This document shows positions 17,104 to 25,460 of a stretch of 49,462 nt of DNA, piece after piece. The stretch lies in contig NHCB01000001.1 of NCBI GenBank assembly GCA_002167745.1, positions 1 to 49,462 on the forward strand. The letters are read 5' to 3'. The stretch's first letter is position 1, and each line of letters starts with the position of its first letter. Under the pieces are notes generated by a model. It did no database searches and was not told where the DNA came from. It saw nothing but the letters and a program-made list of their open reading frames with translations. A program made the translations under genes and the position numbers. Origin of the DNA: Betaproteobacteria bacterium TMED22 (GTDB lineage Bacteria; Pseudomonadota; Gammaproteobacteria; Burkholderiales; Eutrophovitaceae).

Positions 17104-18528
17104 ATGAAAAAATTTAAACTTGTGGGTTTGATGTATGCATGCGTTTATTTGTTTGCCTCTTCCGCTGCTTATGCTGATTACCATTATCATGTTTCAACCG
17201 ATGCGGACTTAAAGAAGTTGGATGTTAATTTATGCTTTAAAGGTGAGGTGCCTAAGGAGCTTGTAGCTGAATCGCTTGATGCATCTGTCGCTTTGATGGG
17301 TGCGTGGTATGGGTCTGGTGAAGAGATTAACGTATCGGGCGTTATTCCTACCGAGCAATTACCTAGTGGCGCCTGCATAGTTTACCAAGTAGACATTTCA
17401 AGGGGTATTCAGAGGCATGACATGACGGGCCCAAAGGTTTATCGGTCTTCAGGGGCGACAGGAGTGTCCAATGGTCTTTGGTTCTGGCGGCCGGAGGTGT
17501 TTGATAAAAATCGCAAGGTCCTTGTCGAATTTCATTTACCCAAGGATTTTATGGTGGCAACGTCCTGGCTTAGCACCGAAAACGAGTATGTTTTGGAAGT
17601 GCCTAAAACCCCTCATGATTGGCCATCTTGGATTGTGCTAGGACGGTTTTTTAAGAAAGAGATTACCGTCGGTGGGATGCAGCTTCATCTGGCGATTTTA
17701 GATGGATCGCCTCAACCTGATGTGGACGCTTTAGCTTATTGGATTGAATCAGAGGCTGGTTATGTTGACGAGGCGATTGGTCCGATACCATTTTCGATGG
17801 TGCAGGTTTTCGTTTTTCCGAATGCGCGCGCGAGGCAACCTGTTCCAATTGCTTACGTTACTCGTGGCGGTGGGCCCACACTTCACATGATGATTAACCA
17901 GCGAAGGTCGATGGAAGAATTCCACGCTGATTGGACAGCAACGCATGAGTTATCTCATTTATATCTTCCGTTCATTGAACCAGAAGATGCGTGGTTCTAT
18001 GAGGGGTTTGCGAGTTATTATCAATATGTTGTTCGCGCTCGGACGGGGGCTATTGATCAACTGAATGCGTGGTCAAACCTGATATATGGTTTTCATAGGG
18101 GTAGTCGTGAGGCGGAAGCTAGAGAGTTAACGCTATTAGAGGCAACTGAAAAGATGTACGCGGGGGAGCCGTTCATGCAGGTTTATTGGGCGGGCGCTGC
18201 TATGATGTTGATTGCCGATGTTCAAATAAGAGAGGAGACGGATGGAGTTTGGTCGCTTGACCGAGTTGTTCGTGAGTTCAACGCTTGTTGTATGGATAAA
18301 ACGCGCGCGTGGAGCGCTCAAGAGGTTATTTTCAAGTTTGATGAGATATACGGTCGTCCTATTTTTTTGCCCCTTATGAGGCGATACGCGGATTCAAATA
18401 ATTTTCCTGATCTGACTGACACTTTTAGCTCCTTAGGCTTGAGCGTAATTGGGAGTAAAGTTTCGTTTTTTGGCAGCGCCGACCAGGGTTCTCTTCGTAA
18501 CCAGATTATGTCAATGCCAGAACGATAG
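17104..18528 (+). CDS. Exported HExxH gluzincin-like metallopeptidase, paralogue 1
   Basis: I do not recognise a named family. The 474-residue protein starts with a Sec signal peptide (cleavage likely after AAYA, residue 24) and has no other membrane segment, so it should be periplasmic or secreted. Zinc-peptidase features are HELSH at 281-285 and a Glu at 300 in WFYEGFASYY, spaced HExxH-x14-E. That resembles Peptidase_MA-type gluzincins and is shorter than the x18 spacing of M1. A TRGGG motif (253-257) precedes the active site. Cys44, Cys91 and the pair Cys395-Cys396 are all matched in the next gene, suggesting disulfides. The C-terminal third has QVYWAGAAMML and FPDLTDTFSSLGL. Substrate unknown. 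The 157 bases upstream hold no clear signal. Confidence 0.85.
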   Translation: MKKFKLVGLMYACVYLFASSAAYADYHYHVSTDADLKKLDVNLCFKGEVPKELVAESLDASVALMGAWYGSGEEINVSGVIPTEQLPSGACIVYQVDISRGIQRHDMTGPKVYRSSGATGVSNGLWFWRPEVFDKNRKVLVEFHLPKDFMVATSWLSTENEYVLEVPKTPHDWPSWIVLGRFFKKEITVGGMQLHLAILDGSPQPDVDALAYWIESEAGYVDEAIGPIPFSMVQVFVFPNARARQPVPIAYVTRGGGPTLHMMINQRRSMEEFHADWTATHELSHLYLPFIEPEDAWFYEGFASYYQYVVRARTGAIDQLNAWSNLIYGFHRGSREAEARELTLLEATEKMYAGEPFMQVYWAGAAMMLIADVQIREETDGVWSLDRVVREFNACCMDKTRAWSAQEVIFKFDEIYGRPIFLPLMRRYADSNNFPDLTDTFSSLGLSVIGSKVSFFGSADQGSLRNQIMSMPER

Positions 18529-18662
18529 ATGGTCTTCAAATTTAAATGCTGAATTGTACTATTCGGCTCTTCGCTAACAGCTTCGAGTTAGAAAAGTTAC
18601 AGTTAATGGTGTGGTAAATTTAGTTTTCGATAACCGTACATGGGAACGCAAACCATTAAACA

Positions 18663-20078
18663 ATGAAGATAATTTTCTATATGGTATGTGTTTTGCCATT
18701 ATGTGCATTTGCAGAATTAAAAAAATCACCTATCCATTATGATGTAGTCGTAGGAGACGACCTACAAAGTATAGAGGTGTCGTCATGCTTTCATGGCGCG
18801 CTTCCCTCCACCTTATCTGCAAATGATGCCGTCGGTTCTTTTGTAAGTAATGTGAGGTTTAAGAACGGACGGACGCTTGCTGTCGAGGTTGATAGAGTAA
18901 ATCTTCCTGCTACACAAACCTCCCGTTGTGTTCTTTATGATGTTCTACTGAAGCCGCGAAACCGCGGTGAGCAGCGGGGTGGCGCTGAAACACGAGTAAT
19001 TGATGATCGAGATATGCTTACCTCCATTGGAGATTGGTTGTTGAGACCTGACGCAGACCCTGAGTATCAGCAATTCTATATAACTTTTGTTATGCCCAAG
19101 GGTGTTCACGTGTCCGCGCCATGGACTCGCGTTAGCGCTACTAGTTTTGTTGGTATGAATACACCTGTCGAGTGGGAGGGTATTGTTGCCTTCTTAAATC
19201 GAGCTCCTAATAGAATAAACATCAACGGTAGTGATTTTGAGATTAGTATTTTAGGTGATTTTCATCGGGCAACTTCCGCGGATATGAATCATTGGGTTGG
19301 ACGATCAGCAGAGGGTATTTCAGCACTCATGGGATTTTTTCCACGACGCCAGGTGCAAGTCATTATCAGTCCGAGTGACCGCACGAACTCCACTGTTCCT
19401 TGGGCCTACATCACTAGAGGCGGAGGGGCAGGGATCCATCTTTTTGTTAAGCGCGATGCCAACCTTGAACAGCTTTTGTGGGACTTTAGCCTGCCTCATG
19501 AGATGTCGCATTTTATGTTTCCGCATATTGATTCTGGTGATTATTGGCTTATTGAAGGATTGCCCACTTATTTGCAGCACTTATCTATGGTGAGGAGTGG
19601 TGTTATCAGTTCCCAAGAGTCCTGGTCTAGGCTTTATCGCGGGTTTTTCTTAGGCAAACGATCTGGTAGAGGTTTTACAGTAGCCGCTTCAATGAGACGT
19701 CTCGCAAGGAGAGGGACCTATCATCACGTTTACTGGGGTGGGGCAGCGTATTTTTTTCGGAGAGATGTGGATTTAAGGATTCGATCTGAAGGTGCGGTGA
19801 CTCTATTGGATATCTTATTGAGATACCATAAATGTTGTTATGAGAAATACCGAAGTGTTTCAGGTGATGAATTGATAAATGATCTTGACTTGTTGTTAGG
19901 CGACGATTTATTTTCGCGTCGCAAATCGGATGAAATCGAGATTGGAGAATTTCCGGATTTTATGACGACATTTAAAAAGCTTGGCATACAATTTCTGGGT
20001 AATAAACCAGTTTTTGAGGAGGGCCCCGCAAATGGGCTAGCCACTCAAATTATGGACCCTGTAAGATTCGATCGTTAA
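18663..20078 (+). CDS. Exported HExxH gluzincin-like metallopeptidase, paralogue 2
   Basis: This is a diverged tandem copy of the preceding gene. The 471-residue protein has a short signal peptide (cleavage near CAFA, residue 17). It shares HEMSH at 279-283 with Glu298 in WLIEGLPTYL (again x14), TRGGG at 251-255 in AYITRGGG, the four cysteines (Cys42, Cys89, Cys391-Cys392), VYWGGAAYF and the ending FPDFMTTFKKLGIQFLGNKPVF. Overall similarity is modest, so the duplication looks old. Both copies keep the zinc ligands and catalytic Glu, implying both are active. The start has no good ribosome site. The 134-base gap before it shows only weak dyads (for example TTAATGGT / ACCATTAA around the start region). 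Confidence 0.85.
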   Translation: MKIIFYMVCVLPLCAFAELKKSPIHYDVVVGDDLQSIEVSSCFHGALPSTLSANDAVGSFVSNVRFKNGRTLAVEVDRVNLPATQTSRCVLYDVLLKPRNRGEQRGGAETRVIDDRDMLTSIGDWLLRPDADPEYQQFYITFVMPKGVHVSAPWTRVSATSFVGMNTPVEWEGIVAFLNRAPNRININGSDFEISILGDFHRATSADMNHWVGRSAEGISALMGFFPRRQVQVIISPSDRTNSTVPWAYITRGGGAGIHLFVKRDANLEQLLWDFSLPHEMSHFMFPHIDSGDYWLIEGLPTYLQHLSMVRSGVISSQESWSRLYRGFFLGKRSGRGFTVAASMRRLARRGTYHHVYWGGAAYFFRRDVDLRIRSEGAVTLLDILLRYHKCCYEKYRSVSGDELINDLDLLLGDDLFSRRKSDEIEIGEFPDFMTTFKKLGIQFLGNKPVFEEGPANGLATQIMDPVRFDR

Positions 20079-20103
20079 ATTTAGATAGTAGTTGCGTAAA
20101 TAT

Positions 20104-21522
20104 ATGACTAGTTCAGATGTTTGTTTCCTACCTGCGCATAAAATGCTCCATATGGTTGCTCGGCGAGAAATTTCAGCGGTGGAATTACTTGATTGTCATT
20201 TGAACCGAGTTGCTGAGGTTAACGGAAAAATTAATGCGATTGTTACGTTGGATGAAGACCGAGCAAGGAGTACAGCTCGAGATATCGATCGACGTATCAG
20301 CGAAAAATTTCCGATACGGATACTGGAGGCATTGCCTGTTGCCCATAAAGATTTAACTGTTACAAAGGGTATTAGAACGACATTTGGATCGCCTCTTTTT
20401 GAACAGTTTATTCCAGACCATAATGCTTTGATCGTAGATCGATTACAACAGTCGGGAGCAGTAACTATAGGTAAAACTAATACTCCCGAATTTGGAGCTG
20501 GGAGTCAAACTTTCAATAAGGTTTTTGGTGCAACGCGAAATCCGTATGATCTCGGAAAAACGTGTGGAGGTTCGAGCGGCGGTGCGGCGGCAGCACTCGC
20601 TGCTGGCCTCATACCAATTGCTGATGGTTCAGACTTGGGAGGTTCACTCAGGAATCCGGCTAGTTTTTGTAATGTTGTTGGGCTTAGGCCTTCAACGGGT
20701 CGCGTCCCAATATGGCCAAATCCATCGGCTTGGTTTCCACTATCGGTTTTGGGGCCGATGGCTAGAACAGTTAGTGATATTTCTTTGATGTTATCCGCTA
20801 TAGCAGGTCCAGATAGACGATGCCCTTTGTCAATTATGGAGAACCCCGAAATTTTTCAGAATGAGTTAAAGCGTGATTTTAGTGGGGTACGGGTGGCATG
20901 GAGCCCTACTCTAGGTGGCTTGCCTGTGGACGACGAGGTGTTAAGAGTGATTGAAGGTGCGGTTCGGGAGCTTGAAGAGCTTGGATGTATTGTGGAGGAG
21001 GTTGACCCCGACCTTAAAGAGGCGGATGAGGTTTTCCACGTGCTTAGGGCATGGCATATGGAGGCATCGCTGGGCGATTTATTAGAGGAGCACCCTGATC
21101 AATTTAAAGACACTTTGGTTTGGAACATTGAGCAAGGCAAGTCTTTTAAAGGTTCCGATATCGGTAAAGCGGAACGACATAGAACAGCACTCTTTGAGCG
21201 ATTTAGTCGATTCATGGATACGTATGAGTTTATAATCTGTCCGGTGACGCAGGTCTTACCATTTGATATTAATCTTCCCTACGTCAAAGAAATTAACGGA
21301 AACGCACTATCCAATTATTTAGAATGGATGAAGTCCTGTTTCCGGATTAGTGTCACTGGACATCCTGCGCTGTCAGTTCCAGCGGGATTCTCTTCTGCAG
21401 GTCTGCCAGTAGGGTTGCAGATTATTGGTCGATTTAGAGATGATTTTGGTGTGTTGCAATTCGGGCACGCTTTCGAACAGTTAAATGAGTTTTGGAAAAC
21501 TCGCCCCAAACTTAAGGAGTAA
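20104..21522 (+). CDS. Amidase-signature family hydrolase
   Basis: The 472-residue serine amidase has a complete Ser-cisSer-Lys triad: Lys82 in PVAHKDLTV, Ser157/Ser158 in CGGSSGGAAAALA, and nucleophile Ser181 in GSDLGGSLRNPASF. Also present are GKTNTPEFGAG and the C-terminal GHPALSVPAGF and GLPVGLQIIGR segments. It has no signal peptide, so it is cytosolic. It is not GatA in context, since no gatB or gatC is nearby, and the specific substrate is unknown. The start is set at the ATG at 20104; the frame extends 4 codons to a TTG at 20092. It follows the second metallopeptidase by 25 bases and touches the next exported protein gene, so these three are probably cotranscribed. Confidence 0.9.
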   Translation: MTSSDVCFLPAHKMLHMVARREISAVELLDCHLNRVAEVNGKINAIVTLDEDRARSTARDIDRRISEKFPIRILEALPVAHKDLTVTKGIRTTFGSPLFEQFIPDHNALIVDRLQQSGAVTIGKTNTPEFGAGSQTFNKVFGATRNPYDLGKTCGGSSGGAAAALAAGLIPIADGSDLGGSLRNPASFCNVVGLRPSTGRVPIWPNPSAWFPLSVLGPMARTVSDISLMLSAIAGPDRRCPLSIMENPEIFQNELKRDFSGVRVAWSPTLGGLPVDDEVLRVIEGAVRELEELGCIVEEVDPDLKEADEVFHVLRAWHMEASLGDLLEEHPDQFKDTLVWNIEQGKSFKGSDIGKAERHRTALFERFSRFMDTYEFIICPVTQVLPFDINLPYVKEINGNALSNYLEWMKSCFRISVTGHPALSVPAGFSSAGLPVGLQIIGRFRDDFGVLQFGHAFEQLNEFWKTRPKLKE

Positions 21523-21525
21523 GTG

Positions 21526-22320
21526 GTGATTTTTAATTACGCAGATTGGAAGTTAAAAATTTCAACGATATTGTTCGTAGCTTTTTTTACCGCGCCGATA
21601 TCTAATATTAATGCAAACGATAGAGTGTTTATTGATGACTTGGAGGGGATTTGGTTTGAAAGGACCTATCTGGATGTGTTGAAGGAGACAAAACAGCCCC
21701 ATCAGGCCGAGAAAAAATCTAAACCGGTACTTATAGCTATTAAAAAAGAAGGTCGTGTCTTTCCTTATTTTGCAACGGATATGGTTAAGGCGACATTAAT
21801 GATCGTATTTGATGTTGAGCCCGGGCAAGAACCAGGTACCTACCGGTTGGTTTTGGGGGAGAGAAATGTGCCTACTTCAGCAGAGGATGTAGTGTATGTG
21901 TGGTTTAGAGGGCAAAAATCTGCGGATGGCCAATTTCGACAATTACAAATCCAAGAACCCTTAATAATGAATGATCAGTGGGCTTCCTTTGAGCGTGTGG
22001 GTAAGGAATTAGGTCCGATTATTAACAACATTGTTCTAAGTGGCACGTATGCTGATAAAAACGGAGGAAAATGGACTTTCACCGATGAGGGAAAGGCGAC
22101 ATTTCCTGGCGAGAGCGCTTTTTATTATGAGGTGTCCTTGATACGAGATGGGGCCAACTGTGATTATATTGAAGCGGAGGACCTAAAATCACCAACAGGC
22201 TTGGCATACTATGGCTTCAGGTGGACTGAGGCCGGAACTGTTGAGATCTTTAAAGCTGATTTAGAAGATGGGGCCGTCTTGTGTCAGTCCGAGCCATTCG
22301 CAGAGTTAAGGCCGATGTAG
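21526..22320 (+). CDS. Exported protein of unknown function
   Basis: I do not recognise this protein. It is 264 residues, starting at the second of two adjacent GTG codons (21526). The amidase's own last codons supply AAGGAG 6 bases upstream, so translation is probably coupled. A signal peptide (STILFVAFFTAPISNINA) predicts export. The mature part looks all-beta, with Gly/Trp/Tyr-rich strands: LEGIWFERTYL, TYRLVLGE, VVYVWFRGQ. A second half begins LSGTYADKNGGKWTFTDEG and carries two cysteines (CDYIEA, LCQSEP) that could pair. The pattern suggests a beta-barrel or lipocalin-like fold, but that is only impression. It could act with the exported metallopeptidases just upstream. Confidence 0.8.
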   Translation: MIFNYADWKLKISTILFVAFFTAPISNINANDRVFIDDLEGIWFERTYLDVLKETKQPHQAEKKSKPVLIAIKKEGRVFPYFATDMVKATLMIVFDVEPGQEPGTYRLVLGERNVPTSAEDVVYVWFRGQKSADGQFRQLQIQEPLIMNDQWASFERVGKELGPIINNIVLSGTYADKNGGKWTFTDEGKATFPGESAFYYEVSLIRDGANCDYIEAEDLKSPTGLAYYGFRWTEAGTVEIFKADLEDGAVLCQSEPFAELRPM

Positions 22321-23864: not shown

Positions 23865-24818
23865 ATGAGAAAAAAACTATTTAGCTCTAATATTTATCCA
23901 TCAGAAATTACATCTAGAACATTGTTCGATTCTAGACGGCGATGGTTACAGGGGAGTGTCGCGTCCTTGTCTGCGCTAGCGATGCCAGAAAAGATTGTGC
24001 ACTCTCGTGAAGATTCAAAATTTCCTGCGCCAATAGATGCCAATAAGAGTAAGTTTTCGAGTGATGAGGAGCAAACAAGCTACGCTGATGTTACGCGATA
24101 CAATAATTTTTATGAATTTGGCACCGGCAAGGAAGACCCGTTTGAGCAAGCGTATCGATTGAAAACGGAAGGGTGGAGGATACAAGTAATCGGTGATGTG
24201 ATGCGGCCCAAAACGTTTGATATGGATGACATCTTACGATTGGCGCCGGTAGAGGAGCGAATTTATCGGCTGCGATGTGTAGAGGCATGGTCAATGGTGA
24301 TCCCTTGGGTTGGTTTTCCTTTGGCTAAATTGTTGAATGCGGTGCAACCGACAGGAAATGCTCGTTTTGTAGAATTTATTTCTCTTTACGATATAGAACA
24401 AATGCCAGGGCAAAAAAGTCCAGTGCTTCGCTGGCCCTATACCGAGGGATTACGTATCGATGAGGCAATGAATCCACTAACGCTTTTGACACTCGGTTTG
24501 TATGGTGAGATTTTGCCCAATCAAAATGGAGCGCCAGTAAGAATTGTCGTACCTTGGAAATATGGATTTAAAAGTGCGAAATCAATCGTCACTATTAGAT
24601 TGACAGAAAAACAACCGGCTTCTTCATGGAACCTGGCTAATCCGAATGAATATGGGTTTTACTCAAACGTTAATCCGAACGTCTCGCATCCCAGGTGGAG
24701 TCAGAGAAGAGAGAGGCGGATTGGGGAGTTTCTTAAGCGGGATACATTAATGTTTAATGGCTACTCTGAATGGGTGGCTGATCTGTATCGTGACTTAGAT
24801 CTCAATAAGTATTTTTAG
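23865..24818 (+). CDS. msrP: Periplasmic methionine sulfoxide reductase, molybdopterin catalytic subunit
   Basis: MsrP (YedY) repairs oxidised methionine in periplasmic proteins with a mononuclear molybdenum cofactor, receiving electrons from MsrQ. The 317-residue precursor has a twin-arginine signal ([13 protein letters not shown], residues about 23-35). The molybdenum-ligating cysteine is Cys138 in [15 protein letters not shown]. The family ends [19 protein letters not shown] and carries [14 protein letters not shown]. Length is close to E. coli MsrP (334). msrQ follows 12 bases after the stop, forming the usual operon, here extended by a small membrane protein. Confidence 0.95.
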
Positions 24819-24830
24819 CGTGGTTAGTTG

Positions 24831-25460
24831 ATGACGTACTCAGCTCGTGCGCCGAGATCTCCCCGTAACAAAAAGCGTCTTAACATTCCGCTAATCTGGT
24901 TAGCCAGTTCGATACCGATAGTCATCTTGGCGGTACGTGCAATCACGAACAAATTAAGCGCAAACCCGATTGAGTTTATTTCACAATATACAGGATGGTG
25001 GACACTGGTCTTCTTGATGTTGACACTGTCTGTAAGCCCTATTCGGTCTATTTTTAATATGCCGCTTATTTTTCCCCTTCGGAGAACATTGGGCCTCGTT
25101 ACATTTTTCTACTCTTTATTCCATTTTTTAAGCTGGTTGGTTTTAGATCAGTATTTTCATTGGACAGAGATTTTGTTAGACCTCACCGAGCGACCTTTTA
25201 TCTATTTCGGATTTACCGCATTTGCGGGGCTTTTAATATTGGCGATTACATCAATAAATCGTATCAAGATGATCGTGGGGCCGATGCGATGGAGACAGCT
25301 GCATAAGGTTGTCTATGTCATAGCGATCCTAGGCGTAATTCATTTTTTTATATTGGTTAAGCGTGACATCACGGAGCCGTTAATATTCGCTGCCTTGCTA
25401 TTCATTTTGTTAGGCTACCGGTTATTTCTATTCATTCAAAAAACTAGACACAAAACTTAG
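24831..25460 (+). CDS. msrQ: Heme-binding membrane subunit of the MsrPQ system
   Basis: MsrQ (YedZ) is an inner-membrane b-type cytochrome that passes electrons from the respiratory chain to MsrP. The 209-residue protein has a positively charged N-terminus and about six helices of the ferric-reductase-like domain. Candidate heme ligands are His118 and nearby residues in FFYSLFHFLSWLVLDQY, and His in WRQLHKVVYVIAILGVIHFF. TGWWTLVFLMLTLSVSPIR is typical of the family. The start is the ATG at 24831, one codon after a TTG. Gap to msrP is 12 bases, and to the next small gene 11 bases. Confidence 0.93.
   Translation: MTYSARAPRSPRNKKRLNIPLIWLASSIPIVILAVRAITNKLSANPIEFISQYTGWWTLVFLMLTLSVSPIRSIFNMPLIFPLRRTLGLVTFFYSLFHFLSWLVLDQYFHWTEILLDLTERPFIYFGFTAFAGLLILAITSINRIKMIVGPMRWRQLHKVVYVIAILGVIHFFILVKRDITEPLIFAALLFILLGYRLFLFIQKTRHKT

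Follow-up and report, generated by a model that had tools for sequence, protein, structure and literature searches.

A conserved gene tandem for M61-like zinc peptidases, probably exported, in Betaproteobacteria bacterium TMED22

The gene pair and its zinc site

The window analysed in this study is the whole stretch of 49,462 nucleotides at positions 1 to 49,462 of contig NHCB01000001.1 of Betaproteobacteria bacterium TMED22 (assembly GCA_002167745.1). Two neighbouring open reading frames (ORFs) on its forward strand encode a pair of putative metallopeptidases, peptidase A of the first-copy type (474 amino acids, 17104..18528) and peptidase B of the second-copy type (471 amino acids, 18663..20078). 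Both were taken from the ORF listing and characterised by alignment, profile comparison and structural modelling. The 134-bp gap between them (18529..18662) is the place where tandem relatives outside the genus carry a gene for a DUF2214 protein. The two genes are a real, conserved and old duplicate pair for M61-like zinc peptidases, probably exported, a variant within known chemistry.

A and B are paralogues which align end to end with 27% identity (BLASTP, E 2e-54). Both begin with what we take, by eye, to be type I signal peptides, ending in AYA before D in A and in AFA before E in B. The zinc site of A reads HELSH-x14-E (H281, E282, H285 and E300) in the context W297-x2-E300-G, and its codons from H281 to G301 occupy 17944..18006 on the forward strand, as computed from the ORF start and the residue numbers. 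The corresponding site of B is HEMSH-x14-E (H279, E280, H283 and E298). Relatives sharing this spacing, hereafter the x14 group, were collected in an alignment of 61 rows including A and B, of which the first 35 are long forms from the order of the window. Truncated or fragment members (L043, L064, L070, L071 and L088) and near-copies (L060, L061 and L069) were left out. The x14 spacing is present in 61/61 rows, which rules out a chance motif, and H281, E282, H285, P289, W297, E300, G301, Y305, Y361, W362 and D372 (A numbering) are invariant, the place of Y361 being occupied in B by Y357. An initial annotation, made from the DNA alone, had described a gluzincin-type motif with all catalytic residues in both copies, and the alignment agrees.

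The four equivalent cysteines with their CC pair described earlier (C44, C91, C395 and C396 in A) do not vary among the 35 long forms of the order, A and B being counted among these. The annotated motif 27 residues ahead of HExxH also lies at that distance in both proteins; from the proposed TRGGG, RGG alone is invariant in the 35 long forms while the rest of the motif is not. In A it corresponds to R254-G255-G256, encoded at 17863..17871 on the forward strand, and aligns at the place of the GGLEH motif of canonical M61 peptidases. The FPD motif at the C-terminus was found as described, with its spacing corrected from x6 to x4 (FPD-x4-F-x2-LG, as read from the translations).

Relation to peptidase family M61

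AlphaFold2 models of A and B have predicted local distance difference test (pLDDT) scores of 94.1 and 92.3, respectively. Foldseek placed M61 entries at ranks 1 to 4 for both models, and VIA-align superposed them on the M61 structure 4fgm with Z 26.9 for A (424 residues, 3.6 Å) and Z 27.3 for B (418 residues, 3.9 Å). Alignment to 8j9c gave Z 23.3 (A) and 23.4 (B), and alignment to M1 enzymes Z about 18 to 23. On the basis of these ranks and scores, the predicted fold of A and B is of the M61/M1 type and nearest to 4fgm. It would combine an N-terminal beta domain with a catalytic domain like that of thermolysin, and would lack the PDZ domain. Comparison of predicted structures with known peptidases, as proposed by the initial annotation, thus brought out an M61-type fold.

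Sequence libraries hardly reach the pair. In Pfam, PF05299 (Peptidase_M61) is the sole family to do so, with 20.6 bits for A and 17.5 bits for B, both under its cut-off of 22 bits. Each of the 35 long forms in the alignment, A and B among them, matches the same family at E <= 1 (best 3.9e-6), and of the 10 chosen relatives that were scanned singly, five exceed the cut-off (23.0 to 27.7 bits). As controls we used six canonical M61 sequences picked as weak matches (L003, L094-L097 and L100), with L093 and other M61-like matches left out; their PF05299 scores are 152.8 to 162.1. PF17899 (Peptidase_M61_N), which matches 6/6 controls, gave no match up to E 1 for A or B. No Pfam PDZ match was obtained for either protein, whereas all six controls have one at E <= 0.001, four of them above Pfam's own cut-off. 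PF13485 (Peptidase_MA_2) matched neither A nor B in Pfam and only one of the 35 long forms (E 0.046, 14 bits against a cut-off of 32.4), and an NCBIfam scan of A and B returned nothing meaningful. Weak library matches had been anticipated, and weak they are.

Profile methods bridge this distance. Compared with the six canonical M61 sequences, the profile aligns at 99.1% over 404 columns, with the respective Y-x2-G and D-x3-R motifs in register. A search of the 61-row profile against the PDB has 7xyo, 4fgm and 8j9c/8j9d as top matches (E 4.7e-7 to 3.1e-5); against the canonical M61 profile, 4fgm reaches 704 bits. The earlier statement that the pair lacks a recognised family therefore holds as regards the Pfam cut-off, and fails as regards the distant full-length relation to M61 revealed by profile and fold.

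A and B resemble M61 (PF05299, PF17899 and PDZ; 4fgm, 8j9c and 7xyo) in fold, in having HExxH and, further downstream, a Glu set in W-x2-EG, and in the Y-x2-G and D-x3-R motifs. Y361 aligns with the Tyr of M61 Y-x2-G, which we take to correspond to the catalytic Tyr of M1. The invariant catalytic residues, together with this M1/M61 Tyr alignment, suggest that A and B are competent hydrolases. Both His of HExxH and the Glu 15 residues downstream would act as zinc ligands, the Glu of HExxH would activate water, and the invariant Tyr would serve, as in M1 and M61, to stabilise the transition state.

All six canonical M61 sequences have 29 residues between HExxH and the Glu and carry GGLEH ahead of HExxH in a protein of about 600 amino acids, whereas A and B have x14, RGG without an acid, and 471-474 amino acids, and match neither PF17899 nor PDZ. 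The genome of the window has its own canonical M61 peptidase of 600 amino acids with a PDZ domain (L003, 583-2385). By eye, this protein presumably has no signal peptide, in contrast to the exported-type N-termini of A and B. M1 enzymes such as aminopeptidase N, LTA4 hydrolase and the two-domain Deinococcus M1 share the N-terminal beta domain and the thermolysin-like domain; HEXXH-x18-E and GAMEN, the signatures given for ERAP1, ERAP2 and IRAP in passages of PMC5545687, are both absent from A and B (x14; RGG followed by no acid). The spacing thus sets the pair apart from M1 and canonical M61 alike, as annotated. A and B most likely share the chemistry of M61, yet we have not filed them as members because several features of the family, when tested, were not found in them. 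Literature searches aimed at the x14 group or at M61 returned no publication on the x14 group in open-licence PubMed Central (PMC) articles, nor was one on the structures 8j9c or 7xyo seen among these.

The acid at the GGLEH position and the expected cleavage

According to passages of PMC3244404 and PMC5545687, the N-terminal amine of the substrate is contacted in M1 by the Glu of GAMEN, and the scissile carbonyl by a conserved Tyr. In the long forms of the order, GGLEH is present in 0/35, D or E occurs within five residues after RGG in 0/35, and the columns of A255-261 hold D or E in 0/35. Elsewhere in the class, RGG itself is kept in 9/13 long forms, and four x14 relatives (L077, L078, L080 and L086) read RGGGD or RGGGE. 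The acid of these motifs aligns exactly with the Glu of GGLEH, which supports the correspondence between RGG and GGLEH. Loss of the acid looks like a trait of the lineage of the window and of some others. A loss in the whole x14 group was considered and dropped, as 8/26 of the remaining rows of the alignment keep D or E in the A255-261 columns. M61 is itself uneven here, the entry 7xyo having ALDH at the place of GGLEH.

We therefore favour, as a reasonably probable reading of alignments and models, that A and B are active periplasmic M61-like metallopeptidases other than ordinary aminopeptidases, with no acid to grip an N-terminus. The acid of GGLEH (M61) or GAMEN (M1) would lie on the rim of the cleft, the place at which M1 enzymes hold the free N-terminus of their substrate; because this acid is missing in the lineage of the window, cleavage of internal bonds or of N-terminally blocked peptides may be expected. 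The pair would go back to one old duplication in a gene row P1-DUF2214-P2, of which the small-genome genus of the window, without DUF2214, keeps both enzymes.

Several observations weigh against this reading. Of the long forms elsewhere in the class, 3/13 have D or E in the A255-261 columns (as RGGGD or RGGGE), as have 5/13 shorter or truncated rows. In the passages of PMC5545687 that describe M1, the N-terminal domain blocks the cleft, and the long form keeps such a domain, which argues for an exopeptidase; the same passages have two Glu holding the N-terminus, and the present comparison covers the Glu of GAMEN/GGLEH alone. As to the fold, the M61 entry 7xyo reaches Z 19.7 (A) and 20.5 (B), not above the M1 enzymes. 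DUF2214 is absent from 13/23 genomes with a full-length long form and is present in 21 genomes without a long form. Elsewhere in the class, 18 stretches surrounding x14 peptidases showed neither DUF2214 nor the genes of the amidase and the 265-amino-acid protein found downstream of B.

Alternatively, A and B could be exported aminopeptidases of the ordinary M61 type, in which other residues hold the N-terminus and the two copies differ solely in the preferred first residue. The M61 fold, the retained N-terminal domain, the complete catalytic set and the acid at the position of the GGLEH Glu in some x14 relatives are all consistent with such enzymes, and Pfam names M61 after a glycyl aminopeptidase. 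However, the acid is gone in 35/35 long forms of the order and the spacing is x14 as against x29 in 6/6 controls, and we consider this explanation unlikely, though one to be taken seriously.

Duplication, distribution and gene neighbourhood

A tree built from 48 long forms, rooted by midpoint only, groups the 13 second copies, including the lone copy of genome G011, in a single clade (100/100). The 13 first copies stand together on the other side, among them three single-copy rows of the same family (100/98). The duplication is older than the genus of the window. Each side of the tree holds two bacterial families, and the duplication therefore most likely predates the split of these families, as judged from the sequences, with transfer as the alternative. 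The median ratio of non-synonymous to synonymous substitution rates (dN/dS) is 0.14 for A (10/21 pairs with finite dS) and 0.13 for B (18/21), compared to 0.08 for the neighbouring gene of the 265-amino-acid protein; seven sequences were used for each gene, the first copy L041 being left out for its runs of N, and dS is saturated in many pairs, so these are rough ratios. By this measure, both A and B are under purifying selection. A decaying copy is ruled out by these ratios of about 0.13 and by open frames in the window and in the listed tandem relatives; one stop was reported inside the match of the second copy of G013, yet its ORF is open over 470 codons. The initial annotation was thus right to see no decaying copy, and the old split fits as well. 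Its further claim of two distinct activities does not stand as worded; long separate descent would fit it, and A and B may have different substrates.

A single active copy, with the other acting as a regulator or partner whose site is retained by ancestry, would be in keeping with the tandem layout, with the overlapping genes of some relatives, and with the long branches on which both copies of the genus of the window lie (1.15 and 1.81). Against it stand the catalytic residues, invariant in both copies, the similar dN/dS of A and B, and relatives which possess one copy alone, of either type. We regard this possibility as very improbable.

Searches with A matched 50 of the 150 related genomes at E <= 0.001. 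As read from the table of matches, full-length forms are present in 23 of these (the genome of the window included) and fragments in two (G005 and G012), while the remaining 25 show only the short form or matches that are weak and partial, for the most part within ORFs some 600 codons long. Side-by-side tandems occur in 12/150 genomes: seven belong to the genus of the window (counting its own), two to the same family (G013 and G015) and three to another family (G038, G084 and G127). In G008, the two copies lie close to contig ends on two contigs, and the genomes G009, G010, G014 and those of f29 and f39 have a single long copy, which falls on the side of the first copies in the tree. In G011 (L047, L123), a copy of the second type occurs alone with DUF2214, about 0.5 Mb from the row of the amidase and the 265-amino-acid protein. 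The tandem that the initial annotation proposed to survey is therefore a conserved arrangement but not an obligate one, several relatives keeping one copy.

More widely, 25/369 genomes of a class sample match at E <= 1e-10, comprising 20 of the x14 group (own genome included; one cut before the motif), four canonical M61 and one without x14 (L093). In a phylum sample, where matches were counted by bit score and not by motif, 23/398 genomes match, 13 (own included) at 226 bits or more and 10 at 52 bits or less. A search of genome contigs with B found three loci. With A as query, viral contigs yielded no relative, one stretch matching a pattern, and plasmids gave no match.

Short one-domain HExxH-x14-E proteins of about 280-370 amino acids (L062, L059, L066, L068 and similar) were observed in Pseudomonadota, almost without Pfam matches. 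They share HExxH-x14-EG, the invariant Y-W and an aligned catalytic half with the long forms, and differ in having no counterpart of the N-terminal half. PF05299 matches 2/10 of them at E <= 1 (best 0.058). Among the 10 short rows of alignment A2, RGG is present in three, 33 residues ahead of HExxH as against 27, and GGLEH in none. No conserved gene cluster beyond 4/12 loci was found around them.

In all five tandem genomes outside the genus, four of them also covered by a further scan, the two peptidase genes flank a gene for a DUF2214 membrane protein. Given GTG or TTG starts, its junction with the second copy is a stop/start overlap in 3/5, with gaps in the other two. DUF2214 genes wedged between peptidase genes, overlapping or abutting them, were seen at L051:9121-9591, L045:9505-9963 and L050:9546-10010. 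All 10 genomes holding both DUF2214 and a full-length long form have them within 1 kb of each other. In the genus of the window, DUF2214 was found in 0/9 genomes; as an obligate partner it is thereby ruled out, and a partnership may be envisaged in the other relatives.

Downstream of B, on the same strand, lie an amidase-signature enzyme identified with Pfam (20092..21522, TTG start as listed), 13 bp after B, and, 0 bp after the amidase stop, a protein of 265 amino acids without a Pfam match (21523..22320). The latter has two invariant cysteines and, by eye, an exported-type N-terminus. Both are conserved neighbours, and the order of amidase, 265-amino-acid protein, MgtE and an MsrP/MsrQ-like pair is kept in several families. 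A molybdopterin oxidoreductase beside a ferric-reductase-like membrane protein was observed by Pfam at 23865-25460 on the forward strand, a pair which resembles MsrPQ. Promoter-like sites number 5 as against 10.4 in shuffles, and terminator-like sites 6 as against 5.8.

Among the 150 relatives, the 265-amino-acid protein and the long peptidase (fragments counted) occur together in 24 of the 26 genomes with either, the two exceptions being genomes 70 and 71% complete. In the 369 class-sample genomes, the 265-amino-acid protein is present in that of the window only, and in the samples searched it is known only from this order, which weakens the case for an obligate partner; synteny by descent may explain the overlap as well as function does. 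This bears on a further explanation, in which the peptidase pair, the amidase and the 265-amino-acid protein form one pathway, e.g. for trimming and salvage of envelope-derived peptides. The gene order conserved over several families, the shared occurrence and the close spacing are suggestive of it. However, x14 peptidases occur in 20 class-sample genomes as against one for the 265-amino-acid protein, so that the overlap may reflect common descent and synteny, and mgtE and, in relatives, metH sit in the same gene row. Such a pathway appears improbable to us.

It can be proposed tentatively, as a conjecture we think doubtful in its entirety, that the x14 proteins, both long two-domain and short one-domain, constitute an unrecognised family split from M61, in which the lineage of the window gave up the acid and its enzymes became envelope endopeptidases or peptidases of blocked peptides, while the paralogues and DUF2214 would form an envelope complex in the relatives with larger genomes. 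The known fold and zinc peptidase chemistry are unchanged by our finding. It adds a group of Pseudomonadota metallopeptidases, coherent and conserved, which Pfam and NCBIfam either overlook or only just detect, and the gene order ties these peptidases to the DUF2214 membrane protein. At the level of residues, it leads to the prediction that the lineage of the window, which has no amine-binding acid, would differ in cleavage from those relatives in which an acid is present.

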